Shown here one piece after another: positions 2,250-57,605 of a DNA stretch of 64,000 nucleotides. A model generated the notes under the pieces. The model had not been told where the DNA came from, did not search any database, and saw only the letters and a list, made by a program, of their open reading frames with translations. The DNA is taken from NCBI RefSeq assembly GCF_004343705.1, contig NZ_SKFH01000001.1:248001-312000 (forward strand). Reading direction: 5' to 3'. The DNA comes from Flaviaesturariibacter aridisoli (GTDB lineage Bacteria; Bacteroidota; Bacteroidia; Chitinophagales; Chitinophagaceae). The position numbers were made by a program, and so were the translations under genes. Every line of letters begins with the position of its first letter. The stretch's first letter is position 1.

Positions 2250-5000
2250 GTGCGTTCCGCCCTGCTCATACTGCTTTGCTCCCTGGGTATAACCACTGTT
2301 GCGCAGAACGGTACTTCCAACCATGCAGCCGGGTTGACCACTAACAGCAATACGTTGTTGCGGGCCGCTGATGCCGCCTACGGCCGGTCGATGGTTATGG
2401 AAGATGAAGACGCATCGGATGCGCTCGCCCGCACCGCCCTGGACAAATACCGGATTGCTTTACGGCAACCGGGTAACCCGGCCCCGCTGCAGGCGCAGGC
2501 CGCAACCCGTGCCGGCGAACTGGCGCAGTACTTTCGTTTAGAAGAAGAGGCCTTGCGTTGGTACCGCACGGTGATCGATCTGCCTGGCATTGCCGACTCG
2601 CTGCGCTTTCGTCCCCTGATCTTTTGCGGGATTATCAACTACGGCCGCAGCCGTCTCGACAGCGCCGAATACTACTTCGACGCCGCCGAACGGATCCAGG
2701 CTCGGTACCCTGCGCCTTTATCCGAAGCCCAGCGCCTGTATAACAACCGAGGCGCGCTTTTCTTCGCAGCGGGCAATTACCGGCAGGCGCGCAATTACTT
2801 CGAGCGGGCGCTGGAGTTGTTGCCCCGATCGAGCCCTTCGTACCGCGACCTCTTTGTAAATTACGAGAGCAACCTGGCGGCCATCCAGGTGCGCCTGGGT
2901 GAATACAACGATGCGCTGGCCCGTTACCGGCGCCTGCTGCCCTACGGCCTGCAGCTGACCGAGATCCGCAACAACATTGGGATCATTCACCTCCGCCAGG
3001 GCCGGGCGGCTGAAGCGCTCCGTTGGCTGGAACCCCTGCGCTACGACGATGCGCGCATGTCCGGGCTCTGGAACGACCGTGCCGAAGCCTGGCTGACGGC
3101 CGGCAATCGCGATCAGGCAAACGCCTGCCTCCGGTCGGCAATGGCCGAGGCGGAGCGCCGCCAGGGCACCGCGCCCCACGCCGAGCGCGGCCGCTCGCTG
3201 CGCCTCCGTGGCGACCTGAAAAGATCCCAGGGCGATCCGCGCGGCGCCCTTGATGACTACCAGGCGGCCCTCCACCAGTTCGACCCCGCATTCGTGTACC
3301 GTAGAAATACGGACAACCCGCAGCATTTCGCCGGGCTGTTTGCCTACCTGCCCTTTTATGAGACCTTGCTGGCCAAGGCCGGTACGCTGGCCGGGCTCGG
3401 TACAAGCGAAGGTGCCGATGCGGCATTGGATACCTATGCAGCGGCCTTCCGGCTCGCCGACTATGTAAGCCGCACCTACGACAACGACGAAGCGCGGCTG
3501 CTGCTGCAGAAAGCCAAGTATGGCGCGCACGGCGCGTCGATCGACCTTGCTTTTGCGCGCTACCGGCAAACGGGCGGGCGCCGCTACCTGGAGCAGGCGT
3601 TTTCTTTCGATCAGCAAAACAAGGCATCGCTACAAGTGCTGTACGAGCAGGAAGCCCGCGGTGGGAGCGGGGCCGACAGCCTCTGGCGCCAGGTGCGGCT
3701 ACTGCGTGCGGAGATCGGCCGGCTGTCGCTGCGGGCGCGGAGCGCCGACCCGGTGCAACAGGCCGCGCTGCGCAGCGAGGGTCGCCGGCAGGAGATCGGG
3801 CTCGAGCGGTTGCTGCGCAGGCTGCACGAGCGGCATCCCGGCGGCGCCGACAGCCTGCCTTCGGTGGCAGCGCTGCAGGCACTGTTGCCCCGGCAAACGG
3901 CGCTGCTGTCGTATCATTTCTCCGGCCGCCGGCTTACCGTATTTCTACTGTCCGGCAATCGTTTCGAAGGGAGGCAGGCGGAATTGTACCGCGGTTTTGA
4001 AGAGGACCTCCGCGCCTGGCAGGCGGCCTTACGCTCGGGCGGTCTTTTGCCGCAGGGAGCAGGCCAACGGCTGTATAGGCTTCTGTTGGCGCCGTACCGG
4101 CAATCGGAAAAACGCCTCTTACTCATCCCCGACGATGAATTGCTGTACCTCCCCTTTGAGTCGCTACCCACCGAAAGTGGGTACCTGGCGGAGCAGTGCG
4201 TGCTGCAATACGCCGCCACCACGGCCTTGCTGCGGCGGGGCGGGCCTGTGGCTCCGGGGCCGGTACTGACCTTTGCCCCCTTCTCGGCGGCTGGCTTCAG
4301 TGGCGGTCCGGTCAGCTTTTCGCGGTTACCTGCTTCGGCCTCCGAAACAGAATCAATGAAAGGCGCGGCTTTGACCGGCGCCGTGGCCAGCAAGGAACGG
4401 TTTCGCGCGCTGGCGGGCCGCTACCCGCTGCTGCACCTCGCCACGCATGCCGTGGCCAACGATTCGCTGCCCGGACTTTCTTACGTAGCGTTCGCGCCGC
4501 GGGGGCTTGCGCCCGATTCGTTCCTGCTCTATGCATCGGAAATATATGACCTGTCGCTGCCGCAAAACCGGTTGCTGGTGCTGAGTGCCTGCGAGACCGG
4601 TACGGGCGCGCTGGTGCGGGGCGAAGGCCTCTTCAGCCTGGGCCGCGCCTTTGCCTATGCCGGCTGCGCAAACCGGATCACAACCCTGTGGAAGGCAGAC
4701 GATGTATCGACTGCCGATATTCTGCGTCGGATGTACCGCTACCTGGAAGAAGGAAAGGACCCGGGAGCGGCGCTGCAGCTGGCCAAGGCCGCGTACCTCG
4801 CCGATCCTCAGGTGCACCCGCGGCGTAAGGCGCCGGCCTACTGGGCCCACCTGGTGTATACCGGCGAGTTGCCCGCCGAACGTCCGGCGCACTGGCTGTG
4901 GTGGGTGCTGGCCGACCTGTTGCTCGTAGGCCTCTCGATCGGGTTGCTACGGCGCCGGCGCAAACGGATCACTGCGCGAGCCGGCGGGCAGAACGGATAA
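2250..5000 (+). CDS. TPR-CHAT caspase-like protease, exported and membrane-anchored
   Basis: A large protein (916 residues from the GTG at 2250) with an N-terminal signal peptide ending VAQ, an array of TPR-like helical hairpins over about residues 40-380, a helical linker, and a C-terminal CHAT domain (Caspase HetF Associated with TPRs) over about 600-860. The catalytic pair is visible: His733 in HLATHA and Cys781 in LSACETG. A C-terminal transmembrane helix (about 881-900) is followed by RRRRKR, so the protease would face the periplasm with a short cytoplasmic tail. CHAT proteases cut or sense partners presented by the TPRs. The GTG at 2250 gives a clean signal peptide; the TTG at 2223 adds nine residues. 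The 3' end overlaps the convergent anti-sigma gene by 32 nt. Confidence 0.85.
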   Translation: MRSALLILLCSLGITTVAQNGTSNHAAGLTTNSNTLLRAADAAYGRSMVMEDEDASDALARTALDKYRIALRQPGNPAPLQAQAATRAGELAQYFRLEEEALRWYRTVIDLPGIADSLRFRPLIFCGIINYGRSRLDSAEYYFDAAERIQARYPAPLSEAQRLYNNRGALFFAAGNYRQARNYFERALELLPRSSPSYRDLFVNYESNLAAIQVRLGEYNDALARYRRLLPYGLQLTEIRNNIGIIHLRQGRAAEALRWLEPLRYDDARMSGLWNDRAEAWLTAGNRDQANACLRSAMAEAERRQGTAPHAERGRSLRLRGDLKRSQGDPRGALDDYQAALHQFDPAFVYRRNTDNPQHFAGLFAYLPFYETLLAKAGTLAGLGTSEGADAALDTYAAAFRLADYVSRTYDNDEARLLLQKAKYGAHGASIDLAFARYRQTGGRRYLEQAFSFDQQNKASLQVLYEQEARGGSGADSLWRQVRLLRAEIGRLSLRARSADPVQQAALRSEGRRQEIGLERLLRRLHERHPGGADSLPSVAALQALLPRQTALLSYHFSGRRLTVFLLSGNRFEGRQAELYRGFEEDLRAWQAALRSGGLLPQGAGQRLYRLLLAPYRQSEKRLLLIPDDELLYLPFESLPTESGYLAEQCVLQYAATTALLRRGGPVAPGPVLTFAPFSAAGFSGGPVSFSRLPASASETESMKGAALTGAVASKERFRALAGRYPLLHLATHAVANDSLPGLSYVAFAPRGLAPDSFLLYASEIYDLSLPQNRLLVLSACETGTGALVRGEGLFSLGRAFAYAGCANRITTLWKADDVSTADILRRMYRYLEEGKDPGAALQLAKAAYLADPQVHPRRKAPAYWAHLVYTGELPAERPAHWLWWVLADLLLVGLSIGLLRRRRKRITARAGGQNG

Positions 5001-5715
5001 ACGAATCGTCTACCTGGCGGTGGTACAGATGTGCGGGGTTGTTGCGGATCTTTTCAAGCAGCGCCAGCGCATCGCCGTAGCGCGTTACCCGTAGAAATAC
5101 AAGTGCTTTGTAGTAATCCGCGTCGTCGCTGAAGGGGGATGATTCAAGCTCCGTCAGGAACGACAATGCCGTAGACCATTCCTTCAGGTGCATGGCTGCC
5201 AGGGCGCCCCGGAGGTACTGATCCTTGGGAATTGCATCGGTGCCGCGCATCCGGTACGCCTGCTGCAGGTCGTCTACCACCTGCCGGTAGTTGCCGGCGA
5301 GGTACGGGGTGCTTTGGCGCGAGGCCGTGTCGCCGCCCCGCAGCTGCGTCGGCTCCCATTCCACGAAATGTTGTGCATATAAGGTTTCGGGGCCTGCAGC
5401 CGGCGCCATTAAGCGGGTTCCGATCCACGCGAGGAGCAACACCGCCGCGGCGGTGAGGCTATAGCGCAGCCAGGGCATGCGCCGGATGGTCGCCGTCGTT
5501 GTTGCGGCCGATTCGTGTTGCGATCGTGCCGAGGCCACCTGCTGCTGCAGCGCGCCCCAGTGCAGCGCCCGGGTAGCCAGCTGCAGGTTGTCGAGGCCTT
5601 CCCGGAGCGCGGCTTCCTGTTGCAGGCGCCCCTCGAGGGAACTACGCTCGCCTGCGTTCAGTTCTCCATCGAGGTAGCGTGCCAGCAGTTCATGATCGTT
5701 CTCAGAAAGGGCCAT
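4969..5715 (-). CDS. Membrane anti-sigma factor with periplasmic TPR-like domain
   Basis: The cytoplasmic N-terminus holds RYLDGELNAGERSSLEGRL, the typical helix of anti-sigma domains, but lacks the HxxxCxxC zinc motif of the ZAS class. A single transmembrane helix follows at about residues 83-101 after RRMPW. The remaining ~147 residues should be periplasmic and look like alpha-helical TPR pairs (for example AALAAMHLKEWSTALSFL). The start codon overlaps the end of the ECF sigma gene by 14 nt, so the two are translationally coupled. It probably holds the sigma at the membrane until the periplasmic part receives a signal. The neighbouring CHAT protease is an obvious candidate to deliver it. 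Family assignment rests on layout and the N-terminal motif. Confidence 0.75.
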   Translation of the reverse strand: MALSENDHELLARYLDGELNAGERSSLEGRLQQEAALREGLDNLQLATRALHWGALQQQVASARSQHESAATTTATIRRMPWLRYSLTAAAVLLLAWIGTRLMAPAAGPETLYAQHFVEWEPTQLRGGDTASRQSTPYLAGNYRQVVDDLQQAYRMRGTDAIPKDQYLRGALAAMHLKEWSTALSFLTELESSPFSDDADYYKALVFLRVTRYGDALALLEKIRNNPAHLYHRQVDDSFIRSARRLAQ

Positions 5716-16704: not shown

Positions 16705-17991
16705 ATGAAAAAACAGCTTCTCGTATTTCTACTGGTGCTCTTCGGAGTCGCGGCGTCGGCGCAGCCGGCGGCCGAGCGCGCGCGCATGGAAAACGAACGC
16801 AAGGCGATCCAGAAAGAACTCCGCGAGCTGCAGGCGCAATACAGCCAGATCAAAGGCAAGACCAAGGCGACGCTGGGCCAGCTCAAAGTGATCCAGGACC
16901 GCATGGAGGTGCAGAACCGCCTGCTCCGTAGCATCGACAAGGAGATCCACATTCTCTCCGACGACATTTACACCAGCACCCTCGAACTCAACCGCCTCCA
17001 GCGCCAGCTCGATACGCTGAAGCAGGAATATGCCCGCAGCGTGGTGTATGCCTACAAGAACCGCAGCTCCTACGACTACCTCAACTTCATCTTTTCGGCC
17101 GAAAGCTTCAACGACGCCCTGAAGCGCGTGCGCTACCTGCGCACTTACCGCCTCTATCGTCAGTCGCAGCTGACCACGATCCGCGAAACGGCCAAGGCTA
17201 TCGAGGAACGCAAGCAGCAACTCCTGGCCAAGCGCAACGACAAGAACCGCGTGCTGCAGAACCAGACCGAGCAATACAATGAGTTGGAAGACCAGAAGAA
17301 GGAAAAAGACCGCGTGGCGACGCAGCTGAAGTCGCAGGAAAAAGAGCTCTCGCAGCAACTGGCCAGCAAACGCAAGCGCGACAACCAGCTGAAGCAGCAG
17401 ATCGCCGCAATGATCCGCCGCGAGATCGAAGCGGCCAAGCGGGAAGCCGAGCGCCGCGAAGCGGAGCGCCGGGCGGCCGAAGCCGCTGCGGCCAGAGCCA
17501 ACCCCACTGCGCCTAAGGCAACAACGCCCAAGCCGAAGCCCAAGGGCGAAAGCGTGCTGATCTTCAACGAAGGCGAGCGGGCATTGGCCGCCACCTTTGA
17601 GCGCAACCGCGGTAACCTGCCGTGGCCGGTAGACCAGGGAAGCGTCAAGATTCCCTACGGCATCAGCAAGGTGGGCGGGCTCGACTTCGACAACGCGTTT
17701 CTCACCCTGTCCACACCCAACGCAGGCGCGTCGGTCAAAGCGGTGTTCGACGGTGAGGTGACCATGGTTACGGGCACCGCCGATGTAATGACGGTGATGA
17801 TCCGCCACGGTAAATACTTCACCATCTATTCGGGCCTGGCCAACGTGAACGTGAGTAAGGGCGCGCAGGTGAAACGCGGCCAGGTGCTCGGTACTACCTC
17901 CGAAGACGATGACGGATCGGGCGGCAAGCTGGACTTCGGGATGCAGATGGAATACACCCGCCTGAACCCGAGCTCGTGGCTGCACCGGTAG
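16705..17991 (+). CDS. EnvC-like murein hydrolase activator (degenerate LytM)
   Basis: A 428-residue periplasmic protein: signal peptide ending ASAQ, a long coiled coil (about residues 20-260, rich in Glu, Lys, Arg and Gln), an Ala/Pro/Lys linker (about 262-282) and a C-terminal LytM/M23 domain. Most zinc ligands of active LytM endopeptidases are missing. The HxxxD site reads VGGLDFD, the HLH-type site reads KLDFGMQ, and only IRHGKYFTIYSGL keeps one histidine. EnvC and its relatives have inactive LytM domains and activate amidases during septum splitting, so that is the likely role. One GTAGAAATAC motif falls in its signal peptide codons. Confidence 0.85.
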   Translation: MKKQLLVFLLVLFGVAASAQPAAERARMENERKAIQKELRELQAQYSQIKGKTKATLGQLKVIQDRMEVQNRLLRSIDKEIHILSDDIYTSTLELNRLQRQLDTLKQEYARSVVYAYKNRSSYDYLNFIFSAESFNDALKRVRYLRTYRLYRQSQLTTIRETAKAIEERKQQLLAKRNDKNRVLQNQTEQYNELEDQKKEKDRVATQLKSQEKELSQQLASKRKRDNQLKQQIAAMIRREIEAAKREAERREAERRAAEAAAARANPTAPKATTPKPKPKGESVLIFNEGERALAATFERNRGNLPWPVDQGSVKIPYGISKVGGLDFDNAFLTLSTPNAGASVKAVFDGEVTMVTGTADVMTVMIRHGKYFTIYSGLANVNVSKGAQVKRGQVLGTTSEDDDGSGGKLDFGMQMEYTRLNPSSWLHR

Positions 17992-18122: not shown

Positions 18123-19259
18123 CTAAACCACCGACTCTTTGCTCAGCACGTCGTCGTACAGGCGCTCGTAAATGGGAATGATGTTGTGGATGTCGAAGCG
18201 ATGCGCGTGCTCGAGGGCATCGCGCTTGAACTGCTGGAGGCACTCGTCGTCGGACAGTATTTCTACGGCCCGCCGGCTCATTGTGTCGATGTCGCCGATG
18301 TTGCCCATAAAGCCGGTCTTGCCTTCGATCATAATCTCGCCGAGGCCGCCGGCATTGGTGCTGATCACCGGCACGCCGGCCGCCATCGCTTCCAGTGCGG
18401 CTAGGCCGAAGCTTTCGTATTCGGAAGTAAGTAGGAACAGGTCGGCGATGGCCAGGATGTCTTCCATCTGCTCCTGCTTGCCCACAAAGCGCACCTCGTC
18501 GTATACCCCGAGCTGACGGCTCAGGTCTTCGGCCGTGGCGCGCTCCGGACCGTCGCCCACGAAGAGCAGCTTGGCCGGGGTTTCTTTCAGCACGTTGGCG
18601 AAGATGCGCACCACATCCTGCACGCGCTTCACCTTGCGGAAGTTGGAGGCGTGCAGCAGGATGCGCTCGTTGTTGGGCGCAATGACCTTGCGAAAGGCAT
18701 CGATGGGCTTGCGCTGGAAGCGAGCCACATCCACGAAGTTGTGGATGACATGAATGGGCTTGGTGATCTGGAAGTGCTTGAAGGTTTCGTCCTTCAGGTT
18801 TTCCGAAACCGCCGTGATGGCGTCGCTTTGGTTGATGGAGAACGTGACTACGGGCGCATACATTTTGTCGCGGCCCACGAGCGTGATGTCAGTGCCGTGC
18901 AGCGTGGTGATCACCGGGATGTGGATGCCTTCCTGTGCCAGGATCTGGCGGGCCATATACGCCGCCGAGGCGTGTGGAATGGCGTAGTGCACATGGAGCA
19001 GCTGCAGGTGGTTGTTCTTGATCACGTCCACCATCGTGCTGGCCAGGGCCGTTTCGTAAGGCGGGTAATCGAAGAGGGGATAGGTGGGCACCTGCACCTC
19101 GTGGTAAAAGATATTGGGAATAAAGCCGGTGAGCCGCACCGGTTGCTGGTAGGTGATGAAGTGAACCTGGTGTCCTTTCTGGGCGAGGGCCTTGCCGAGC
19201 TCTGTAGCGAGCACACCGCTTCCGCCGAAAGTAGGATAGCAAACTATTCCAATGCGCAT
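18123..19259 (-). CDS. bshA: N-acetyl-alpha-D-glucosaminyl L-malate synthase
   Basis: BshA joins GlcNAc from UDP-GlcNAc to L-malate, the first step of bacillithiol synthesis, a thiol cofactor used in many Bacteroidota. The protein is a 378-residue GT4 GT-B glycosyltransferase. The N-terminus MRIGIVCYPTFGGSGVLATELG and the C-terminal EX7E signature in SEYESFGLAALEAMAAG are typical. The segment ITTLHGTDITLVG is diagnostic for BshA. It converges on the EnvC-like gene through a shared terminator. No bshB or bshC is in the window. Confidence 0.95.
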   Translation of the reverse strand: MRIGIVCYPTFGGSGVLATELGKALAQKGHQVHFITYQQPVRLTGFIPNIFYHEVQVPTYPLFDYPPYETALASTMVDVIKNNHLQLLHVHYAIPHASAAYMARQILAQEGIHIPVITTLHGTDITLVGRDKMYAPVVTFSINQSDAITAVSENLKDETFKHFQITKPIHVIHNFVDVARFQRKPIDAFRKVIAPNNERILLHASNFRKVKRVQDVVRIFANVLKETPAKLLFVGDGPERATAEDLSRQLGVYDEVRFVGKQEQMEDILAIADLFLLTSEYESFGLAALEAMAAGVPVISTNAGGLGEIMIEGKTGFMGNIGDIDTMSRRAVEILSDDECLQQFKRDALEHAHRFDIHNIIPIYERLYDDVLSKESVV

Positions 19260-21229: not shown

Positions 21230-21934
21230 TCAGCCTGCGGCAAACAGCAGGAAGATCGCCGGCCTCTTGTGCAGCTCCGGCAGCGACGCCCGCCACTGTG
21301 CGGGCGTTTTTGTTTGCACCGACTCCTGCGGGCCGGTGAGGTCCACCGCCACGCAGATCAGCGTTTGCGGCGCGCAGGTTTTGAGCAGTACCTCCAGCAG
21401 CTGGTTGTTGCGGTACGGCGTTTCAATGAAGATCTCCGTGCAATTATTCTTGCGCGAGTCGGATTCGAGGGCACGGATGGCCTTCTGGCGCTCGCCCGCT
21501 TCGATGGGCAGGTAGCCGTTGAAGCGGAACTGCTGGCCGTTCATCCCCGAAGCCATCAGCGCCAGCAGGATCGAAGAGGGGCCGACCAGGGGTTTTACCA
21601 GGGCGCCTTCACCCTGCGCCAGGTGCACCAGCAACTGCCCCGGGTCGGCCACACCGGGGCACCCGGCCTCGCTGAGAATGCCCACGGTATGGCCGGCCTG
21701 CAGGTCCCGTAGAAATACGGTCCGCAGCTCGGAGGTGAGCTCTTTCATATTGTGCCAGCCGTAGTCGTCGATCACCATTTCCTTCCAGATGCTCTTCAGG
21801 AAGCGGCGGGCGGTGCGCTCGTTTTCAACATAGAAAACACGACAGGCTTTTATCGCGTCGAGCAGGTAGGCGGGAAGGCACTGCGTGGCGCCTTCGTGCA
21901 ATACGGTCGGGATCAGGTAGACGGTGGCGCTCAT
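21230..21934 (-). CDS. RsmI-like tetrapyrrole-family SAM methyltransferase
   Basis: A 234-residue member of the tetrapyrrole (corrin/porphyrin) methylase superfamily closest to RsmI, which 2'-O-methylates C1402 of 16S rRNA. Supporting motifs are ILSEAGCPGVADPG and PLVGPSSILLALMASG, and FIETPYRNNQLLE. The N-terminus lacks the usual GTPxGN motif and reads LIPTVLHEG, a feature of a shorter Bacteroidota subgroup, so the exact substrate is uncertain. Its ATG overlaps the stop of the upstream EI24-like gene (ATGA at 21931-21934), so the two are translationally coupled. Confidence 0.85.
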   Translation of the reverse strand: MSATVYLIPTVLHEGATQCLPAYLLDAIKACRVFYVENERTARRFLKSIWKEMVIDDYGWHNMKELTSELRTVFLRDLQAGHTVGILSEAGCPGVADPGQLLVHLAQGEGALVKPLVGPSSILLALMASGMNGQQFRFNGYLPIEAGERQKAIRALESDSRKNNCTEIFIETPYRNNQLLEVLLKTCAPQTLICVAVDLTGPQESVQTKTPAQWRASLPELHKRPAIFLLFAAG

Positions 21935-24758: not shown

Positions 24759-24846
24759 GTTTGTAGTTTGTGGTTGGTGGTTTGTAGTTGGCTGGCGCAC
24801 AAAGCTGGCGCCGCATCGCGGAACTACAAACCCCAAACTCCAAACT
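24759..24846. repeat. Inverted word-repeat spacer (GTTTGTAG family)
   Basis: The left arm 24759-24791 starts 5 nt after the rimM stop and repeats GTTTGTAG/GTTTGTGG. The right arm 24821-24846 is the inverse (AACTACAAACCCCAAACTCC). The element sits between two convergent genes, and the same words recur at 101-131 and 58411-58443. Confidence 0.6.
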
Positions 24847-36984: not shown

Positions 36985-38619
36985 CTAGGGCACGAACGAA
37001 AACGTGTCGCCGTCGAAGAGGCCGAGGTCGCTCAGCTTCAGGTGCGGGATCACGAGCAGCGCCATGAACGAAAGGGTCATAAAGGGCGCGCCCAGCGGGG
37101 AGCCGAGGGCCTTGGCCGCCTTGTCGATGGCGGCGTATTTCTCCGCCACCACGTAGCCGTCTTCGGTGCTCATGAGCCCGGCTACCGGCAGCGGCAATAC
37201 GTACTCCTCGGCGCCGTCGATGCAGCTGACGCCGCCGCCGGCGGCAATGACCGCGTTGACGGCGCGGGCGAGGCTTTCATCGTCGGCGCCTACGGCCACG
37301 ATGTTGTGGCTGTCGTGCGCCACCGACGAGGCGATGGCGCCGCGCTTGAGGCCGAAGTTTTTGATAAAGGCCGTAGCCACCGGCGCCTCCTTGTAGCGGT
37401 TCACCACGGCGATCTTGAGCACGTCGTTTTCGGGGTCCGACACGATATGGGCATGACTCACTTTGGCGGGCAGCAGCAGCTTGTTGGTAATGAGTTGCCC
37501 GTCGAGCGCCTCGATCACGGGAATGGTCGTTTCGCCTTTTAAGGGCACGGCGAAATCGTTGACCGCCTTCGGTGTGCAGCTGAACTGGTTGATGAGCCCG
37601 GCCTTCGGCGCGGTGATGAGGGTCTTGCCGTTGGCGGCCACCTGCTGCCCGTCGATCCAGGTTTGCAGCACTTCAAAGTGCACGAGGTCTTTCACGAGGA
37701 TGAAGTCGGCGGGGTCGGCGGCCTGCAGCTGGCCCACCTTCATGCCGTAGTGGTGCACGGGGTTGAGGCAGGCGGCCTTCAGCACTTTGAATACGTCGAT
37801 GCCTTTGGCCACGGCGCGGGCGCAGAGCACGTTGATATGGCCTTCCACGAGCGAGTCGGGGTGCTTGTCGTCGGAGCAGAACATGATGGCGTCCTCGTGG
37901 TCGTGGAGCAGCTCAATGAGGGCTTCAAAGTTGCGGGCGGCGCTGCCTTCGCGGATGAGGATCTTCATCCCGTAGTGCAGCTTGTCGAGCGCTTCTTCCT
38001 TGGTAAAGCATTCGTGATCCGTAGAAATACCGGCGTCGATGTATTGCTTTGCCGCCACGCCGCGGAGGCCGGGCGCGTGGCCGTCGATCACCTTACCGTG
38101 CTTTTTGGCCAGCGCGATCTTCTGCATAACGACGGGGTCGGCGTGGAGCACGCCGGGAAAGTTCATCATCTCGGTGAGGTATACGATCTCCTTGCGCTGC
38201 AGCAGGTGGTCTATGTCTTCCACCCCGATGACGGCGCCGGCCGTTTCGAAGCCGGTGGCCGGCACGCAGCTCGGCGCCCCGAAGTAGAATTTGAAGGGCA
38301 CCTTGCTGCCGTTGTGGATCATGTAGTCCACGCCGGCCACGCCGCATACGTTGCCGATCTCGTGCGGGTCGGAGATGGTGCCCACCGTGCCGTGCACGAC
38401 GGCCAGGCGCGCAAACTCCGACGGAACCAGCATGGAGCTCTCTACGTGCACGTGCGCATCCACGAAGCCGGGCAGCAGGTAGGGGAGGCTGTCGGCATCG
38501 GCGCCGGTGTAGGGCGTCACGGAAGCGATGCGTCCGTCTTCAACGACGACCGTGCTGGGCTCGATCGTTTTGGTGGCGATGCGCACGAGGCGGCCGGAAA
38601 TGGTAACGGGAGTGCTCAT
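36985..38619 (-). CDS. ade: Adenine deaminase
   Basis: Converts adenine to hypoxanthine and ammonia in purine salvage. The 544-residue amidohydrolase has the metal site GFVDAHVHVESSML near residue 50, GKVIDGHAPGLRG near 185, ISTDHECFTKEE, CSDDKHPDSL, and the family-specific SVAHDSHNIVAVG near 415. A C-terminal beta domain closes the protein. TAGCTTAG, 5 nt before the ATG, is one mismatch from the -7 consensus. One GTAGAAATAC motif sits in the codons for GISTD. Confidence 0.95.
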   Translation of the reverse strand: MSTPVTISGRLVRIATKTIEPSTVVVEDGRIASVTPYTGADADSLPYLLPGFVDAHVHVESSMLVPSEFARLAVVHGTVGTISDPHEIGNVCGVAGVDYMIHNGSKVPFKFYFGAPSCVPATGFETAGAVIGVEDIDHLLQRKEIVYLTEMMNFPGVLHADPVVMQKIALAKKHGKVIDGHAPGLRGVAAKQYIDAGISTDHECFTKEEALDKLHYGMKILIREGSAARNFEALIELLHDHEDAIMFCSDDKHPDSLVEGHINVLCARAVAKGIDVFKVLKAACLNPVHHYGMKVGQLQAADPADFILVKDLVHFEVLQTWIDGQQVAANGKTLITAPKAGLINQFSCTPKAVNDFAVPLKGETTIPVIEALDGQLITNKLLLPAKVSHAHIVSDPENDVLKIAVVNRYKEAPVATAFIKNFGLKRGAIASSVAHDSHNIVAVGADDESLARAVNAVIAAGGGVSCIDGAEEYVLPLPVAGLMSTEDGYVVAEKYAAIDKAAKALGSPLGAPFMTLSFMALLVIPHLKLSDLGLFDGDTFSFVP

Positions 38620-38808: not shown

Positions 38809-39651
38809 ATGAGTGAATCCGCAATCGTACAGCCCGCCGTCAATCCCAACCAGGCACTCTGGGAGAAGGGCGATTTCACCCGCCTCGCCGAAACGATGCG
38901 CGCCTCCGGCACGCGCCTCGTGGAATCCATCGGCGTCCGTGCCGGCATGGACGTGCTCGACGTGGGCTGCGGCGACGGCACCACGGCGCTGCCGGAGGCC
39001 CGCCTCGGCGCCAACGTACTGGGCGTCGACATTGCCCGCAACCTCGTGGAGGCCGCCCGCCGGCGCGCCGAGGCCGAGGGGCTGACCAACATCGAGTTCC
39101 GCCACGGCGACGTGACCCACCTCGAAGGCATCGCCGACGAAAGCTTCGACCTCGTGGTGAGCATCTTCGGCGCCATGTTCGCCCCGAAGCCGCACGAGGT
39201 GGCGAAGGAGCTCGTGCGCGTTGCCCGCCCCGGGGGGCGCATCGTGATGGGCAACTGGATCCCCGGCGACACTACGCTGGTGGCGCAGATCCTGCGCATC
39301 GCCTCGGCCTACACCCCGCCGCCGCCCGAGGGCTTCGTGAGCCCGATGCTCTGGGGCGTGGAAAGCCACGTCACCGAGCGCTTCGCCGCCGCCGGCATCG
39401 CGCCGGAATGTATCTCGTTCCAGCGCGATACCTATACGTTCGAGGCACCCATCCCGCCGTCGGAATTCCTGGAGCGCTTCCGGTATTTCTACGGTCCGAC
39501 GATGAATGCCTATGCAGCCGCTGCCCAGGCGGGACGCGAAGACGAACTGCAGGCGGAGCTGGAAAAGCTGTTCACCGAACAAAACCGGAGCGGCGACCCG
39601 AACAGCATCTCCATCCCGGCCACCTTCCTGCGCGTGACCGTAAAAAAGTAG
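38809..39651 (+). CDS. Class I SAM-dependent methyltransferase
   Basis: A 280-residue Rossmann-fold methyltransferase. Motif I is DVLDVGCGDGTTALP (about residues 48-62), followed by NVLGVDIARNLVEAA, DLVVSIFGAMFAPKP and the post-IV RPGGRIVMGNWIP. It resembles UbiE-type small-molecule methyltransferases, but the substrate is unknown. Very high third-position GC. TAACTTTA (38731-38738) is a one-mismatch -7 box about 70 nt upstream. One GTAGAAATAC motif occurs near its 3' end. Confidence 0.86.
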   Translation: MSESAIVQPAVNPNQALWEKGDFTRLAETMRASGTRLVESIGVRAGMDVLDVGCGDGTTALPEARLGANVLGVDIARNLVEAARRRAEAEGLTNIEFRHGDVTHLEGIADESFDLVVSIFGAMFAPKPHEVAKELVRVARPGGRIVMGNWIPGDTTLVAQILRIASAYTPPPPEGFVSPMLWGVESHVTERFAAAGIAPECISFQRDTYTFEAPIPPSEFLERFRYFYGPTMNAYAAAAQAGREDELQAELEKLFTEQNRSGDPNSISIPATFLRVTVKK

Positions 39652-42765: not shown

Positions 42766-45129
42766 ATGAAGCGCATACTCCTCCTCGCATTCGCCCTCTT
42801 CTCCACCGCCGCCGTTTTTTCGCAGGCCGGGCTCTCCAGCAGCTACGGCACGGTCGAAGCGGTGTCCTATGGCAATAACAGCTACAAGATCACCGTCCGC
42901 AGCAGCCGCCCGCACGGCGAGCCCATCAGCGATGCCGTCATTGCGAGGCCCACGGGTAAAACAGCGGCCCTGCGGGCCCTCGGCCGCGATTCCTTCGAGC
43001 TGCGCGCCGGCGGCCACAGTGTTCGCTTCGCGCTGTTCCAGTCGGGCGATACGGCCGGCTTCCGCTTCGCGCTGGCGCCCGACGAACGCTGGTACGGCGG
43101 CGGCGAGCGCGCCCTGCCCCTCAACCGCCGCGGCTACCGCCTGGCCCTCAACAACAACCCCTGGTACGGCTACGGCGAGGGCGCCGACAACCTCAATTAC
43201 AGCGTGCCCTTCTTTACGTCGTCGGGCGGCTACGGCCTCTTCTTCGACAATCCCGCCCGCTCGTATGCCGACATCGGGAAGAAGGCGGCGTCTTCCTTTG
43301 AATGGGGCGCACCCTCGGGCGAGTGGAGCGTATACGTGCTCCTTGGCGACTATGCCGGTGTGCTCTCCGGCTACCACAAGCTGACCGGCACGCAGCCGCT
43401 GCCGCCGCGCTGGGCCTTCGGCAACCTGATGAGCCGTTTCGGCTATACGAGCCAGGCGCAGGTGGAAGGCATCCTCGCCAAAATGGACGCCGAGCACGTG
43501 CCCGTGGAAGCCATCATCTTCGACCTCTTTTGGTTCGGCGACTCCATCAAGCAAACAATGGGCAACCTCGACTGGGTGAACCGCCAGAAGTGGCCCGACC
43601 CCAGGGGTATGATCGCCGGCTTTAAAAAGAAGGGCGTCAACACGATCCTCATCACCGAGCCCTTCCTCGTAGAAACGTCCACGAACTACGCGGCTTCGAA
43701 GCCGTTCCTCGCCGTCGACAGCGCGGGCAAGCCCTACTACCTCACCGACTTCTATTTCGGTAAAGGCGGGCTGCTCGACCTCTTTCGCAACGACGCGCAG
43801 GCCTGGTTCTGGTCGTTTTACAAAAAGCAGATGGCCCTCGGCGTGGAAGGCTGGTGGGGCGACCTCGGCGAGCCCGAGCGGCATCCGTCCAACATGTACC
43901 ACAACCTCCGCGACCTCGGGTATTCGAAGCGCCTGTTCAAGGCCGACGAAGTGCACAACATTTACGGCCATGCGTGGACGAAGATGCTGTATAAATACTA
44001 TGCGAAAGAATACCCCGCCAAGCGCCTCTTCTCGCTCAACCGAAGCGGTTTTGCCGGCTCGCAGCGCTTCGGCATCTTTCCCTGGACGGGCGACGTGGGG
44101 CGCAACTGGAGCGGCCTCCGCGCGCAGCTGCCCGTGCTGCTGGGGATGACGATGAGCGGCGTGCCCTACGTGCACAGCGACGCCGGCGGCTTTGCCGGTG
44201 GGGAAGGCGATGGCGAGCTCTATGTGCGCTGGCTGCAGTTCGCAGCTTTTACACCCATCTTCCGCCCGCATGGTACCGCCCTCTACGAGGTGGACAAAGC
44301 GGCGTTCTCCTATCCCAGCGAAGTGGCGCTGATCGACACACCCTGGCGCGCGCCGGCCAAAGAGGCCATCCGCGGCCGCTACCTGTTCTTGCCGTATAAC
44401 TACAGCCTTGCCTACCTGCAGGCCAAAGAGGGCAAGCCCCTGATGGCGCCCCTGTATTTCTACTACCCGGGCGATACCACGGCCACCAAGATCCAGGACC
44501 AGTATTTCTGGGGGCCGAACCTGCTCGTATGCCCCGTGCTCGAGAAGGGCGCCCGTAGCCGCCACCTTTACCTGCCGGCCGGCAACTGGTTCGACCTCGG
44601 CGGCCGCTCCTACGCCGGCAGCCGCTGGCTCGACCTGCCCGTGGGGCTTTCCACGATTCCCGTATTCCTGAAGGAAGGCGCCCTCGTGCCCACCCAGCAG
44701 GCTGCCCGCCTCCGGAACACCGCCGCCGACAGCGCCGCCCTCCCGATGCTTTATTACTGTCCTTCCAGCACGCCCACGCGCTTCGACTGGTACCTCGACG
44801 ACGGCCAGTCGAAGTCGTCGCTGGCCAGCGGCCGCTATACGCTGCTGCGCTGCGAAGGCGTGCGCAAAGACAGCGTCATCCGCGTAAAGGCGACGCCGTC
44901 CAATCAACGGTATACCCGCAAGCAATTGCAGGTGCTCGTAGCCGGTGTGTCCTCGCGCCCGGCGCGTGTGCTCGTGAATGGCAAGTCCGTGCCGCTCGTG
45001 GGCAGCCCCACCGAAAGCGCCGCGCTCAGGGGGCAATCGACCGCCTACTGGAACGAGCGCTTCGGCACCCTGCTGGTAACCAGCGCCAAAGGCATGAAGG
45101 CCGCGCTGGCGATCGAGGTCAAAATGTAA
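42766..45129 (+). CDS. Glycoside hydrolase family 31 enzyme
   Basis: A 787-residue exported glycosidase (alpha-glucosidase/alpha-xylosidase type) with signal peptide MKRILLLAFALFSTAAVFSQ. An N-terminal galactose-mutarotase-like beta domain is followed by the (beta/alpha)8 barrel, about residues 220-570. The catalytic nucleophile Asp is in WWGDLGEPERHP, near residue 368, with a Gly-Leu variant of the usual WxDMNE. The acid/base Asp is in HSDAGGFAGG, near 476. Two C-terminal beta domains close the protein. The substrate is not predictable from sequence alone. One GTAGAAATAC motif is inside the gene (44454). Confidence 0.92.
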   Translation: MKRILLLAFALFSTAAVFSQAGLSSSYGTVEAVSYGNNSYKITVRSSRPHGEPISDAVIARPTGKTAALRALGRDSFELRAGGHSVRFALFQSGDTAGFRFALAPDERWYGGGERALPLNRRGYRLALNNNPWYGYGEGADNLNYSVPFFTSSGGYGLFFDNPARSYADIGKKAASSFEWGAPSGEWSVYVLLGDYAGVLSGYHKLTGTQPLPPRWAFGNLMSRFGYTSQAQVEGILAKMDAEHVPVEAIIFDLFWFGDSIKQTMGNLDWVNRQKWPDPRGMIAGFKKKGVNTILITEPFLVETSTNYAASKPFLAVDSAGKPYYLTDFYFGKGGLLDLFRNDAQAWFWSFYKKQMALGVEGWWGDLGEPERHPSNMYHNLRDLGYSKRLFKADEVHNIYGHAWTKMLYKYYAKEYPAKRLFSLNRSGFAGSQRFGIFPWTGDVGRNWSGLRAQLPVLLGMTMSGVPYVHSDAGGFAGGEGDGELYVRWLQFAAFTPIFRPHGTALYEVDKAAFSYPSEVALIDTPWRAPAKEAIRGRYLFLPYNYSLAYLQAKEGKPLMAPLYFYYPGDTTATKIQDQYFWGPNLLVCPVLEKGARSRHLYLPAGNWFDLGGRSYAGSRWLDLPVGLSTIPVFLKEGALVPTQQAARLRNTAADSAALPMLYYCPSSTPTRFDWYLDDGQSKSSLASGRYTLLRCEGVRKDSVIRVKATPSNQRYTRKQLQVLVAGVSSRPARVLVNGKSVPLVGSPTESAALRGQSTAYWNERFGTLLVTSAKGMKAALAIEVKM

Positions 45130-45609: not shown

Positions 45610-48600
45610 ATGCGCCGACCCTTACTCTTACTGACGTTGTTTCTTTCCGTGACCGTCTTTGCCCAGAAGCGAAAGGCTGCCGCCGAACCCGATGCTGATT
45701 CGGCCCTGTTCAGCCGCCTCAAATTCCGCCTGGCCGGTCCCTTTCGCGGCGGCCGCGTTGCAGCCGTGGCGGGGAGCACGCGGCAGAAGAATACCTTCTA
45801 CTTCGGTGCGGTGGGTGGCGGCGTGTGGAAGACCAGCGACGGCGGCTCCAACTGGAAAAACGTTTCGGATAAATATTTCGGCGGCTCAATCGGCGCCGTG
45901 GCCGTCGCGCCTTCCGACGACAACGTGCTGTATGCCGGCGAAGGCGAGAACACGCTCCGCGGCAACGAAAGCGAAGGCCTCAACGGCATCTGGCGCTCCG
46001 ACGACGCCGGCCGCACCTGGAAGAACTGCGGGCTCAAAGACGCGCGCCACATCAGCCGCATCCTCGTGCACCCGCGCGATCCCAATACCGCCTGGGCCGC
46101 CGTCATCGGCCATTCGTTCGGACCGAACGACACCCGCGGCGTGTATCAAACCACCGACGGCGGCAAGACCTGGAAGCGGCAACTGTTTGTCAACAGCAGC
46201 ACCGGCGCGGCCGAACTCGCCATGGAGCCGGGCAACCCCTCGGTGCTCTATGCCGGTATGTGGCGCGTTCAGCGCACGCCCTGGAGCATGGAAAGCGGCG
46301 GCACCGGCAGCGGCCTCTGGCGCAGCACCGACGGAGGCGCCACCTGGACCAACCTCAGCGCCCGCAAGGGCCTGCCCAAAGGCGTATGGGGCATCGTGGG
46401 CGTGGCGGTAGCGGCCACGAATCCCGACAAGATCTATGCGCTCGTGGAGAACGAGAAAGGCGGCCTCTTCGTGTCGAACGACGCGGGGGAGACCTGGACG
46501 CTTACTTCCTCCGACAACAACATCCGCCAGCGCGCCTGGTATTACTCGAAAGTGTTCGTGGACCCGAAGAACGAGAACACGGTGTATGCCCCCAACGTCA
46601 ACTTCATGCGCAGCCGCGATGGCGGCAAGACCTTCCAGTCGATCCCCGTCGGCCACGGCGACTGCCACGACGTTTGGATCGATCCCGAAGACGGGGCCCG
46701 CATGATCCTGGGCGACGACGGCGGCGCCGAAGTGAGCTTCGATGGCGGCGGGAACTGGAGCACGCTGCGCAACCAGCCCACCGCTCAGATCTACCGTGTT
46801 TCTACGGATAACAGTTTTCCCTACCGCATCCTCGGTGCGCAGCAGGACAACAGCACCATTCGCCTCCGCAGCCGCGGCCGCGGGCGCGGGGGCATTACCG
46901 ACAGCGACTGGGAGCCCACCGCCGGCGCCGAAAGCGGCTACGTGGTGGCCGACCCGCTCAACCCCGACATCGTATACGGCGGCAACTATGGCGGCTACCT
47001 TTCGCGCCTCGACCATCGTACCGGCGAGAACCGCGCCGTGAGCCCCTGGCCCGACAACCCGATCGGCGCGGGCGCCGACGTGCAGAAGTACCGCTTCCAG
47101 TGGAACTTCCCCATCTTCTTTTCGCCCCACAACCCGAAGCGCCTCTATTGCGCGGCCAACGTGCTCTTCGCCACCGAAGACGAAGGCGCCACCTGGAAGC
47201 AGCTTTCGCCCGACCTCACTACCAACGACAAGAGCAAGCAGGGCCCCAGCGGCGGGCCCATCACCAAAGACAATACCTCGGTGGAATATTACTGCACCAT
47301 CTTCACCGCGCTGGAGTCGCCCTACGAGAAAGACCTGCTCTGGACCGGATCCGATGACGGCGTCATCTCCGTGAGCCGCGACGGCGGCGCTACCTGGGCG
47401 AACGTCACACCGGCGGGACTGCCCAAATGGATGCTATGGAACTGCGTGGAGGCGGACCCCTTCCAGAAAGGCGCCGCCTACTTCGTGGGCACACGCTACA
47501 AGCTTGATGACTTCACCCCGTATATCTACAAGACCGAGGATTACGGAAAAAGCTGGAAGCTGCTTACATCAGGTATCCCGCCCTTGCACTTCACGCGCTG
47601 CCTCCGTGCCGACCCGAAGGTGCCCGGGTTGCTTTATGCCGGCACCGAATACGGGCTCTACCTGTCGCGCAACGGCGGGCAAACATGGCGCCCCTTCCAG
47701 CTGAATCTGCCGGAGACGCCCGTGACCGATATGACCATTAAAGACAACGATCTCATCGTAGCCACGCAGGGCCGCTCCTTCTACGTGCTCGACGACCTCG
47801 GGCCGCTGCAGCAGTGGACGCCGGCCACGGCGCGCAAACGCCTGCAGGTGTTTACGCCGGCGCCGGCCTATCGCCTGGCAGGCAGCGGCAACGCTTCATT
47901 TACCACAACGCCGCGCAATGCCGGGGCCAATCCGCCCGGTGCCATCGTGGTGCCCTTCTGGGTCAGCGGTCTGGCCGACAGCAGCAGCGTGCGCGCGGTG
48001 GTACTCGACAAAGACCACAAAGAGATCCGCAGCTTCAGCAGCCATGCGACAGAAGACGCCCGTAAGATCGACATCGCCGACGGCTTCAACCGCTTTGCCT
48101 GGAACGCGCTCTACCCCGAGTCGGAACGCATCGAGGGGATGATCCTTTGGAACGGCGTGCCCGGCGGCATCCTGGCGCCCCCGGGACAATACTATGTGCG
48201 TATCGTGGTGGACCGCGATTCGGCCGAAGTGCCGGCGACGATCCTGCCCGACCCGAATTACAAAGCGACCGTCGCCGATTACGCCGCGCAGTTCGCATTT
48301 CTGAAAATGGTGCAGGACAAATTCAACGAAACGCAGAAAGCACTGAAAGACATCCGCGCCCTCCGGAGCCGCATCGACGCCTTCCTGGAGCTACAGGGGA
48401 AGAGCGTACCCAAAGAGGTGAAGGAAGCGGCCGATACGGTGCAGAAGCGGCTGCAGCGAATCGAGGAAACGCTGTACCAGACGAAAGCCCGCAGCGGGCA
48501 GGACGTGCTCAATTACCCCATTCGCCTCAACGACAAGCTCTCGGGACTTTTCGACGTGGCCAACAGCGGCAACTTCGCCCCGAGCCGGCAGGTGCAGGAA

Positions 48601-55514: not shown

Positions 55515-55519
55515 TTTCG

Positions 55520-55619: not shown

Positions 55620-56071
55620 TTTCTCGGAACCGCCTTTTTCAGTGAAGAAACCAGGTCCTCCTTCCCGGTCTTCAGATCCGCCATTGTCTTGTTTTCGAGA
55701 ATGCCCAGCATGGCGTCGCGCACCTGCTCCATGATGTCGTGGAGACCGCAGTTCTTTTCGTCGCAATTGTGGCAGCGCTCGTAGAAATACAGGCTTACGC
55801 AGGGCAGCGGTGCAATGGGTCCGTCGACGGTGCGCATGATGGTGGCAATGGAGGTTTCTTCCGGGCGGTTGCGGATGAAGTAGCCACCGCCTTTGCCCTT
55901 TTTGCTGTCGAGCACCCCGGCTTTCTTGAGCTGCAGGAGAATGTTTTCGAGAAACTTGAGGGGGATCCGCTTTTTGTCGGCGATGTCGGCAATAAGCACC
56001 GGCCCCGAATCGATATGGTCGACGAGGTAGGTAAGGGCGCGAAAGGCATAGATGGCTTTCTGCGTCAGCAT
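55610..56071 (-). CDS. Rrf2-family transcriptional regulator
   Basis: A 153-residue Rrf2 regulator. The winged helix-turn-helix is at the N-terminus (MLTQKAIYAFRALTYLV and IPLKFLENILLQLKKAGVLDS, then KGKGGGYFI). Cysteines in PLPCVSLYFYERCHNCDEKNCGL (four within 20 residues) suggest iron-sulfur binding as in IscR/NsrR/RsrR relatives, so it may sense redox state, nitric oxide or iron. Its ATG overlaps the stop of the OsmC gene by 1 nt, so they form one unit. One GTAGAAATAC motif lies in the YFY codons between two of the cysteines. Confidence 0.88.
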   Translation of the reverse strand: MLTQKAIYAFRALTYLVDHIDSGPVLIADIADKKRIPLKFLENILLQLKKAGVLDSKKGKGGGYFIRNRPEETSIATIMRTVDGPIAPLPCVSLYFYERCHNCDEKNCGLHDIMEQVRDAMLGILENKTMADLKTGKEDLVSSLKKAVPRKSL

Positions 56072-56472
56072 CAGGCGTCGGGGTTTTGCAGGTGGAGCGT
56101 GTAGCGGATGGGCGAATTCTTGCGCAGCATCGCGGCCACGCCGCAGTATTTATCCAGCGACAATTCGATGGCCTTCACCACTTTGTCTCGGTTTTCTTCG
56201 TCGGTGCGGAGGGTGTAAATGATGTCGATGCCGGTGAACACGCGCGGGTGCATGTCGGTCTGCTCCGCGTTCACCTCGATCTCCAGCGCTGCGAAGGGAA
56301 CGCGCATCTTCTCCAGTATATCTACGATGTCGACGCCTGTGCAACCCGCCAGGCCGCTCAGCAGCAGTGCCTTCGGACTGAAGCCGGCCGTAGCGTTGAT
56401 GGCGATCTTCGCGCCGTTGGGCTGCTCGCTTTCATAGGCCGAGCCGCCTTTCCAAACCGTGGTTGTTTTCAT
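56071..56472 (-). CDS. OsmC-family peroxiredoxin-like protein
   Basis: A 133-residue OsmC/Ohr-type protein. The catalytic Cys pair is represented by LAGCTGVDIVDILEKM (first) and KYCGVAAML (second), as in OsmC hydroperoxide reductases. The ATG at 56472 gives MKTTTVWKGG, the family start. It is coupled to the Rrf2-type regulator downstream, which suggests regulation by oxidative stress. A longer reading from 56571 runs into a repeat spacer. Confidence 0.88.
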   Translation of the reverse strand: MKTTTVWKGGSAYESEQPNGAKIAINATAGFSPKALLLSGLAGCTGVDIVDILEKMRVPFAALEIEVNAEQTDMHPRVFTGIDIIYTLRTDEENRDKVVKAIELSLDKYCGVAAMLRKNSPIRYTLHLQNPDA

Positions 56473-56593: not shown

Positions 56594-57592
56594 TCAGAGA
56601 TCTTCAGGTCCGTGTTTCTTGTTCTGGAGAATGTTGTTCACCGTCCACGTGATCTCCTGGCGGAACGGATGCTGCCGCACAGGGCAGTCTTTTTTGTCGC
56701 AAATGGGGCATTGGAAATAGAGGCAGCCATCGGAGTGCACAAAGAGCTCCAGCGATTCTCCAAAGCCGGCGCGCGCCAGTTCGGCCAGCCGGTCGATCTC
56801 GTGGTGTGCCTGGTGCACGTTGAAATACCAGGGCACGGTGAGGTGGCAGTCCATGTGCAGGGTATTGCCGTATTTGATCACCCGCAGGTTGTGCAGGTCT
56901 ACCCAGCCGTCGCGGCGGTTGGCATTGAGCAGGTCCACCATCCGGCCGAGGAGCTCGGTGTCGGCTTCGTCCATGATGCCCGCGAGCGAAGCGCGCAGGA
57001 TTTTGTAGCCGGTGTAGATAACGAGTACGCCCATGGCAACGGCCACCGCCGAGTCGAGCCAGAGGGCGCCGGTAAAGCGGATCAGCAAAAGAGCCACCAC
57101 GATGCCGAGGGTGGAATACGTGTCGGTTTGCAGGTGCTTGCCCGAGGCGATGAGCGCCAGTGACCCATTGCGCTTGCCTTGCCGCACGGCGCCGTAGCCG
57201 AGGATCCAGTTTACCAGCGCGGTGCCGGCGATGATGTAGATACCCGTGTCGAGGGTGCCGAGCTTTTCGGGAACGATAAAGGTCTTGACGGCCTTGTAAA
57301 TGATCAGCGCGCCCGCCGAGAGCACGAGCGTTCCTTCTACGGCGGCGGAGATGAATTCGGCCTTGCCGTGGCCGTAGGGATGGTCGGCGTCGCGCGGCTT
57401 GGCCGACACATAGAGGCTGTACAGCCCGATAAAGGCGGCGGCTACATTGACGATGCTTTCAAGGGCATCGGTAAGTACCGCCACGGAGTTGGTGCGGTAG
57501 TAGGCGAAAAACTTGGCGAGCAACAGCAGGCAGGAGGCGACGGCGATCCAGAACTGCAGGCGCAGGTTGCTTTTTTGGGGCGAATGGGGCAC
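56594..57592 (-). CDS. Cation diffusion facilitator transporter with Cys-rich tail
   Basis: A 332-residue CDF (ZnT-like) divalent-cation/proton antiporter with about six transmembrane helices (roughly residues 10-30, 38-60, 75-95, 115-135, 155-170, 180-195). The metal site is in ALESIVNVAAAF (TM2) and LDSAVAVAMGV (TM5), with HPYGHGKAEF after TM2. The cytoplasmic domain ends with CPICDKKDCPVRQHPF, a CxxCx4C pattern that looks metal-binding. GTG at 57592 is chosen because the sod gene ends 13 nt upstream. Probably co-transcribed with sod, so a metal and superoxide link is plausible. Confidence 0.85.
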   Translation of the reverse strand: MPHSPQKSNLRLQFWIAVASCLLLLAKFFAYYRTNSVAVLTDALESIVNVAAAFIGLYSLYVSAKPRDADHPYGHGKAEFISAAVEGTLVLSAGALIIYKAVKTFIVPEKLGTLDTGIYIIAGTALVNWILGYGAVRQGKRNGSLALIASGKHLQTDTYSTLGIVVALLLIRFTGALWLDSAVAVAMGVLVIYTGYKILRASLAGIMDEADTELLGRMVDLLNANRRDGWVDLHNLRVIKYGNTLHMDCHLTVPWYFNVHQAHHEIDRLAELARAGFGESLELFVHSDGCLYFQCPICDKKDCPVRQHPFRQEITWTVNNILQNKKHGPEDL

Positions 57593-57605
57593 GGTAGAAA
57601 TACGG

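Follow-up and report, generated by a model that had tools for sequence, protein, structure and literature searches.

The window analysed here is a stretch of 64,000 nucleotides from Flaviaesturariibacter aridisoli (C1:248001-312000 of the 4.37-Mb source draft, G000), in which copies of a 10-mer, GTAGAAATAC, are dispersed. We observe that a 14-bp interrupted dyad, CCGTA-N4-TACGG, with a spacer of exactly four bases, underlies this 10-mer, which is its most frequent form, and that such dyads are dispersed by the hundreds in the genomes of one Flaviaesturariibacter group, where they are selected as DNA. Judging from sequence, they are putative sites of a dimeric DNA-binding protein that would act chromosome-wide in an architectural or segregation-type role, a reading that we hold with about even confidence.

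Excess of the 10-mer

An original prediction, made from the letters of the window, had placed eleven exact copies of the 10-mer there, and we find all of them at the predicted places and strands, including the two copies in the full palindrome CCGTAGAAATACGG (3299-3312 and 21707-21720). The accompanying estimate of far below one copy by chance also holds, with 100 dinucleotide shuffles of the window giving a mean of 0.04 copies and a maximum of 1. The two near variants that had been pointed out correspond to CCGTAAAAATACGG at 27213 and CCGTGTTTCTACGG at 46794, and beyond these we observe an exact dyad with another spacer (CCGTAGAACTACGG at 35605) and a one-mismatch dyad at 44392.

Across the whole draft, F. 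aridisoli has 278 copies of the 10-mer versus 4 of the reversed pattern that served as a control. For closer analysis, sequence was read from F. aridisoli (532 kb), from F. flavus (917 kb of ~4.0 Mb) and from the genome PMG_218 (469 kb of ~3.8 Mb), with some of the fetched stretches chosen since the site list showed sites there. Counts of the 10-mer lie far above Markov expectation in all three, with 46 copies versus 1.4 (fourth order) and 2.5 (fifth order) in 452 kb of F. aridisoli, 28 versus 1.4 and 2.3 in 637 kb of F. flavus, and 33 versus 1.1 and 1.9 in 429 kb of PMG_218. A single 10-mer, AACTACAAAC, has a slightly higher z-score than GTAGAAATAC in the fetched F. aridisoli sequence.

An interrupted dyad with a fixed spacer

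The palindrome and the DNA-level nature of the signal, both part of the original prediction, are retained here, while the 10-mer gives way to the dyad as the right unit. When five-base half-sites are scanned at spacers of 0 to 16 bases, CCGTA-N4 ranks first by a wide margin in F. aridisoli, F. flavus and PMG_218, and in the corresponding four-base scan CGTA-N4 comes first in F. aridisoli and PMG_218. CCGTA and TACGG lie four bases apart 37 times in F. aridisoli (452 kb), 28 times in F. flavus (637 kb) and 35 times in PMG_218 (429 kb), compared with 0, 0, 0 and 0, 0, 0, 1 and 2, and 0, 0, 0 and 0 times, respectively, at spacers of 2, 3, 5 and 6 bases. With one departure, spacer 4 still gives 55, 48 and 53 matches in the same three genomes versus 6 to 25 at other spacers, the changed base being mostly the second of the half and less often the first or fourth.

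With respect to the spacer itself, its centre is A/T-A/T in 34 of 37 exact dyads in F. aridisoli, 25 of 28 in F. flavus and 33 of 35 in PMG_218. Within GTA-N4-TAC, the spacers in F. aridisoli are led by GAAA (46), followed by TAAA (18), GAAC (14) and GATA (6), with nearly the same ranking in the other two genomes. Since the real unit is a dyad with a varying spacer, GAAA stands for a spacer preference rather than for a tetraloop in itself. Little is conserved outside the 14 bp.

Conservation beyond what coding explains

The window is syntenic with contig C46 of F. flavus (70 to 89% identity by segment), where five of the eight aligned window 10-mers are identical (18257, 38021, 39483, 44454 and 55781). 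Because three of these five read TAT TTC TAC (Tyr-Phe-Tyr), which protein constraint could keep, we turned to a codon-matched test on relaxed sites, that is, sites under a relaxed rule that was fixed after the motif had been seen. From F. flavus to F. aridisoli, 71 of the 99 codons that fall entirely within relaxed sites are unchanged, versus 33.0 expected from the same codons elsewhere, and the rare codons AGA, ATA, CTA and TCT are kept in 10 of 14 cases inside versus 39 of 243 outside (P = 1.5e-5). From F. aridisoli to F. flavus, the corresponding values are 81 of 132 versus 46.0 expected, and 10 of 19 versus 42 of 239 for the rare codons (P = 0.001). When only amino-acid-keeping codons are compared, 83% and 74% are identical inside sites in the two directions versus 64% outside (P = 0.0002 and P = 0.03, respectively).

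The sites are also kept as sites. Eighteen of 25 aligned relaxed sites of F. flavus are still sites in F. aridisoli, compared with 3 of 23 control dyads with other spacers, and 18 of 37 aligned F. aridisoli sites are still sites in F. flavus, compared with 3 of 17 controls; the 18 kept sites are the same ones in both alignment directions, which are therefore not independent. In these kept sites, identity reaches 96%, versus 72% in their flanks, a figure to which the choice of kept sites itself contributes. For nine F. flavus 10-mers, which were not preselected, identity in F. aridisoli is 93% (flanks, 71%), and for 15 F. aridisoli 10-mers it is 79% in F. flavus (flanks, 70%). At C1:283607 and C1:203351, the arms are conserved with a differing spacer. 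Conservation in close relatives is thus found, though about half of the F. aridisoli sites are absent from F. flavus, and the sites are conserved beyond what coding explains, indicating selection on the DNA itself. The genome-wide excess, the codon-matched conservation and the varying spacer together give good support to the earlier notion that the signal lies at the DNA level, whatever the strand, frame or gene.

Placement in genes and along the chromosome

Genes were called with our own small script and are approximate. In the fetched parts, 82 of 107 10-mers lie wholly within called genes, 28 in sense and 54 in antisense orientation, and all frames are occupied except the sense frame that gives an in-frame TAG. 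Ten of the window copies had been read as intragenic; the caller agrees for nine of the eleven and puts 16723 and 57594 between genes. Codons that the copies had been said to force are rare as claimed (AGA 0.4, ATA 1.9 and CTA 1.7 per 1,000 codons). Relaxed sites that touch no called gene make up 52 of 275 (19%) versus a non-coding share of 14 to 16%, so that the concentration upstream of genes that operators would show is found neither for the 10-mers nor for the relaxed sites.

Gaps between sites are near random (coefficient of variation, 0.93 to 1.04), with gaps shorter than 500 bases below expectation in two of four contigs (0 versus 3.9 and 2 versus 5.6). Sites occur on all 12 contig parts read, including near a putative parS. 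The latter is a pair of parS-like GTTCCACGTGGAAC sequences in conserved synteny (C16:61404 and 61450 in F. aridisoli; C25:55609 and 55646 in PMG_218), which likely marks the origin region; in F. flavus, the exact pattern does not occur. Around the putative parS, relaxed sites number 8 versus 17.5 expected in F. aridisoli (P = 0.009) and 5 versus 8.7 in PMG_218 (P = 0.14), though the expectation is set somewhat too high by stretches that were fetched on account of their sites; this sparseness is possibly an effect of chromosome position. At the other extreme, up to 18 relaxed sites fall within 30 kb at C1:203-236 kb of F. aridisoli (scan P = 0.010 to 0.025), a region that is diverged and partly rearranged relative to F. 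flavus. The same scan in F. flavus is not significant (P = 0.06 to 0.39), and contig C46 of that genome is denser than C42 (42 sites in 237 kb versus 73 in 680 kb; P = 0.011). Downstream of a gene that we read as atpA-like, F. aridisoli and PMG_218 each have two intergenic sites that differ in sequence.

Three related genomes carry the dyad

The 10-mer is enriched in only three of 18 genomes of the genus, namely, F. aridisoli, G298 (323 copies) and G295 (140 copies), which we take as PMG_218 and F. flavus, respectively; the remaining 15 have 2 to 23 copies. Among 294 sampled genomes of the family, a sample without PMG_218 and F. flavus, F. aridisoli is the outlier, the counts elsewhere ranging from 0 to 42. 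Exact dyads number 240 in the whole draft of F. aridisoli, 254 in PMG_218 and 129 in F. flavus versus 10, 7 and 16 control dyads, and a second sample of 146 other family genomes shows 0 to 16, mostly at or below their controls (one genome, G047, has 16 versus 4). Across 247 genomes of the phylum, the exact 14-mer occurs 56 times in F. aridisoli and 0 to 2 times in each other genome.

In an unrooted one-protein tree of 14 sequences (13 of 68 loci plus the window), the three carriers cluster with RYN_278 adjoining. The whole RYN_278 draft has 5 dyads versus 1 control; in 395 kb of it, we find 2 relaxed sites, no spacer-4 excess and no other comparable dyad. It keeps none of 14 aligned F. aridisoli sites, only 1 of which is common to F. 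flavus. Because RYN_278 is without sites, the carriers would have gained theirs after the split from its lineage. Across the branch where the motif appeared, G+C content differs by ~10 points or more (RYN_278, 46%; carriers, 57 to 60%). A five-base dyad scan of 220 kb of a non-carrier congener (G294, C12:1-220000) gave nothing comparable; that stretch has TCGA-N7-TCGA 11 times versus 0.3 expected.

Sites in the window

Five 10-mer copies that have an aligned counterpart are identical in F. flavus. In a glycosyltransferase gene, CAGTATTTCTACGG (18255..18268, minus strand; 10-mer 18257-18266; codons GTA GAA ATA, with ATA rare) is identical over the 14-mer, and RYN_278 has CAGTATCTCAATGG. An adenine deaminase-like gene contains CCGTAGAAATACCG (38019..38032, plus strand; 10-mer 38021-38030; codons ATT TCT ACG), identical over the 10-mer. 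The other three read TAT TTC TAC, and for them the protein sequence may also account for the identity: CGGTATTTCTACGG in a methyltransferase-domain gene (39481..39494, minus strand; 10-mer 39483-39492), CTGTATTTCTACTA in a GH31 gene (44452..44465, minus strand; 10-mer 44454-44463, the part that is identical) and TCGTAGAAATACAG in an Rrf2-family regulator gene (55779..55792, plus strand; 10-mer 55781-55790). The same caveat applies to two sites that are identical in F. flavus and lack the exact 10-mer, the one-mismatch CCGTATAACTACAG in the same GH31 gene (44392..44405; codons TAT AAC TAC) and the relaxed site CCGTATATCTACAA (47518..47531; in a gene, codons TAT ATC TAC).

At two further places, the aligned sequence has changed. 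The full dyad CCGTAGAAATACGG in a TP_methylase-domain gene (21707..21720, plus strand; 10-mer 21709-21718) is matched by CCGTAGAAATGCTG in F. flavus and CCGTTTAAAGGGAG in RYN_278, and the exact dyad CCGTAGAACTACGG in a DUF2382 gene (35605..35618) by CCGTATTACTACGG in F. flavus, with the arms kept and the spacer changed. Sites not kept in F. flavus are the relaxed sites TTGTATAAATACGG (237..250) and CAGTATATCTACGA (56314..56327), both in minus-strand genes, the exact dyad CCGTAAAAATACGG in an IMS (Y-family DNA polymerase) gene (27213..27226), and TCGTATTTCTACTG (16721..16734, minus strand; 10-mer 16723-16732), intergenic by the approximate calls. Likewise intergenic by these calls is CGGTAGAAATACGG (57592..57605, plus strand; 10-mer 57594-57603), opposite which F. 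flavus has a gap and no site.

No F. flavus counterpart is aligned for three sites, namely, the full dyad CCGTAGAAATACGG at 3299..3312 (plus strand; 10-mer 3301-3310; codons CGT AGA AAT ACG) and the one-mismatch CCGTATTTCTACTG at 3937..3950 (minus strand; 10-mer 3939-3948; codons GTA TTT CTA), both in one TPR/CHAT-domain gene, and CCGTAGAAATACAA at 5089..5102 (plus strand; 10-mer 5091-5100) in a minus-strand gene without a Pfam match. The near variant CCGTGTTTCTACGG (46794..46807) has its one mismatch in the GTA core and is not a site under the relaxed rule.

The window also contains 8 copies of AACTACAAAC (0.03 expected; 40 copies in the 452 kb of F. aridisoli) in three small clusters (101-132, 24759-24831 and 58412-58442), the first of which is an array of the 7-base unit AACTACA. 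Further words are heavily repeated too, such as AATGCGGTAATG and GCTCGCAATGAC (both in F. flavus) and GAGAAAGAACGC (shared by F. flavus and PMG_218), and are probably longer dispersed repeats.

A putative chromosome-wide binding site

Two identical half-sites at one fixed distance, with a loosely read A/T-rich centre between them, point to a homodimeric protein that would bind each site as double strand. Such a protein would read the GTA core and, less strictly, the two outer bases of each half, and would prefer a soft A/T centre without fully reading it. Because the sites ignore gene strand and frame, are mostly intragenic and bring rare codons with them, its task would be chromosome-wide, serving architecture, segregation or division coupling in a manner functionally like MatP, SlmA or Noc, and not promoters. 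Among the functions offered in the original prediction, a site for a nucleoid or segregation protein is thus the one that is predicted to fit best, and an RNA tetraloop hairpin fits badly. More tentatively, and with somewhat less than even confidence, we propose that a dimeric protein, either newly acquired or re-specified, came to use hundreds of 14-bp sites while a single genus diverged, and that many of these sites were imposed on coding sequence despite the rare codons this entailed.

Several observations weigh against this chromosome-wide dimer reading. No reader protein was identified, binding being deduced from symmetry alone, and inspection by eye of the 52 intergenic sites for an autoregulated DNA-binding gene gave no convincing candidate. 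MatP (PF06303) is absent from all seven genomes tested, with a positive E. coli control, and there is no second ParB, PF02195 having one match in each of nine genomes, drafts included; the known organisers tested hence do not explain the sites. Site turnover is fast, as the 18 of 37 F. aridisoli sites kept in F. flavus indicate, and F. aridisoli compared with PMG_218 keeps 3 of 5 and 3 of 10 (small numbers). Near the putative parS, the 10-mer keeps its average density (5 copies in 80 kb), there is no clear domain pattern, the denser region is seen in F. aridisoli only (P ~0.01), and the stretches compared were partly chosen for holding sites. As for the motif, CGTA-N4 ranks only fifth in the four-base scan of F. 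flavus, and the 10-mer is outside the 14 most over-represented 10-mers listed for that genome. A composition control, GGCAT-N4, has 36, 30 and 25 one-mismatch matches in F. aridisoli, F. flavus and PMG_218 (the motif has 55 in F. aridisoli), and with two departures no spacer-4 excess is left (208 versus 178 to 216 at other spacers in F. aridisoli).

If an organising system was indeed born within the genus, the birth of a genome-wide DNA code could be followed step by step. Chi, uptake sequences and other signs of this genome-wide kind are often common to whole genera or families, which makes it difficult to observe how they arise. In the present case, three related carriers and a near relative without the sign make its appearance, spread and upkeep against coding pressure directly testable. 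Should the reader be an architectural protein, it would also provide a handle on chromosome organisation in Bacteroidota. Literature searches gave no match for the 14-mer or the 10-mer and nothing joining iterated palindromes with intragenic location; one narrow query on nucleoid occlusion in Bacteroidetes found nothing, and the accessible portion of the Flaviaesturariibacter literature has nothing evidently on the dyad.

Alternative explanations

The alternative that survives best, although we regard it as unlikely, is an origin like that of the HIPs (highly iterated palindromes) of cyanobacteria, in which a DNA methyltransferase or a methyl-dependent mismatch-repair bias would make and maintain the sites, with a selected function or none. 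Methyltransferase targets are usually shorter than 14 bp, HIP1 is a continuous GC-rich 8-mer and not an interrupted 14-bp dyad with an A/T centre, and the one-mismatch departures at the second base of the half fit protein contacts equally; these points speak against it. The gain of sites in the carriers is, as with HIPs, a clade-level event. In the available part of one report (PMC4390886), cyanobacterial HIPs are also palindromic, iterated and lineage-variable, and some cyanobacterial genomes replace HIP with other palindromes matched by a methyltransferase.

Ranking next, and likewise improbable in our view, is a DNA uptake sequence, in which case transformation would prefer DNA with the motif and copies would accumulate through biased uptake and recombination. 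This would agree with the confinement of hundreds of copies to a single group and with their near-random spacing and scatter over both strands, within genes as well as between them. A ComEC-type protein (PF03772 over cut-off) is present in seven of seven genomes, carriers and non-carriers, and since it does not separate the two, it does not decide the matter. Uptake sequences are not known to take the form of interrupted dyads and tend to be far denser, and the strict symmetry and free spacer point instead to a dimer. We found no literature on uptake sequences in Bacteroidetes.

That the dyads are operators of a global transcription factor appears quite unlikely. Their 5-4-5 shape is like that of FNR- and LexA-type operators, some CCGTATAAATACGG copies in a non-carrier (G065) look operator-like by eye, and the intergenic share is slightly above the non-coding share; however, most sites are intragenic, and the 52 listed intergenic sites, judged by eye without a count, do not favour gene starts.

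Chi-like or KOPS-like sites, with a strand-polar role in recombination or segregation, are a still weaker candidate and very improbable. Four-fold-site skew has almost no replication component, and plain skew tracks gene direction, so that replication strand is not readable from skew and such polarity is testable by the strand agreement of neighbouring sites only. The preferred GAAA spacer lends the site weak polarity, neighbours in F. aridisoli share strand slightly above chance (P = 0.08; 100 listed sites in each genome) and its 10-mers divide 122/156 between strands (binomial P = 0.048); by contrast, F. flavus shows no neighbour agreement (P = 0.30), and strands are even there (74/66) and in PMG_218 (161/162).

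We give very little credence to an RNA or single-strand hairpin with a GAAA loop, e.g., a terminator, even though the 14-mer folds as a 5-bp hairpin and recurs in terminator-like hairpins elsewhere (L220, L221 and the viral piece L302, below). For a hairpin, complementary arms suffice, yet CCGTA is the sole strongly enriched five-base arm, and spacers GAAC and GATA also occur. Of the genic 10-mers, 54 of 82 are antisense, though stop-free frames are two of three in sense versus three of three in antisense. As to terminators, no T-run flanks the 10-mers and most sites are in genes; there is also no Rfam match in the window. Finally, mobile-element footprints or an assembly artefact, which could account for a signal seen in one genome group only, deserve hardly any weight, given that little is conserved past 14 bp, that the F. 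flavus stretch is gap-free at 35 of 37 listed aligned sites and that the same positions recur across separate assemblies.

The same letters in other genomes

In G065, which belongs to a different genus of the family, the spacer is TAAA in 6 of 14 dyads and AAAA in one (L174-L180). Several lie just upstream of genes, by eye those of FecR-like regulators and a response regulator, and may form a small regulon under a similar operator; one such copy each is present in G145, of the same genus, and in G060. From another Bacteroidia family, four 14-mer copies were viewed and, by eye, two are in carB-like coding sequence (PYFYG) and two are terminator-like. The terminator-like CCGTAGAAATACGG hairpins in that other family are at L220 1501-1514 and L221 1501-1514, and the AT-rich viral contig L302 has three such copies (1350, 1820 and 2024). 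A scan of viral contigs gave mostly single copies among at least 120 loci. Two of these contigs (L252 7976-8509 and L326 3287-3820) have three relaxed sites each at equal mutual distances, so they are probably related sequences. The terminator use seen elsewhere looks unlike the sites of the carriers.

Comparison with known systems

Dispersed dyads of 13 to 14 bp that are read by a dimer organising the chromosome are known as matS sites, with MatP as their reader. Unlike these, the present dyads occur in genomes that were negative for MatP; they lie on every contig part read. SlmA and Noc, which act in nucleoid occlusion, bind palindromes of about this length that are scattered over much of the chromosome; here, the sequence is unrelated, the sites are more numerous and each of nine genomes has one ParB-type protein. 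The uptake sequences of Neisseriaceae and Pasteurellaceae resemble the dyads in being dispersed, strand-neutral and often intragenic, with lineage-specific dialects, and differ in being denser and in not being known to form interrupted dyads. The strong genome-wide over-representation that marks HIPs is found for the dyads too (240, 254 and 129 versus controls of 10, 7 and 16). According to the accessible text of PMC4390886, HIP1 and the alternate HIPs of cyanobacteria (GCGATCGC) are alike in being short palindromes iterated chromosome-wide, which abound in certain lineages while relatives have few of them or other words instead, and their function is unsettled. What sets the two apart is that HIP1 is a continuous GC-rich 8-mer of cyanobacteria, whereas the sites described here are 5-4-5 dyads with an A/T-rich free spacer in Bacteroidota.

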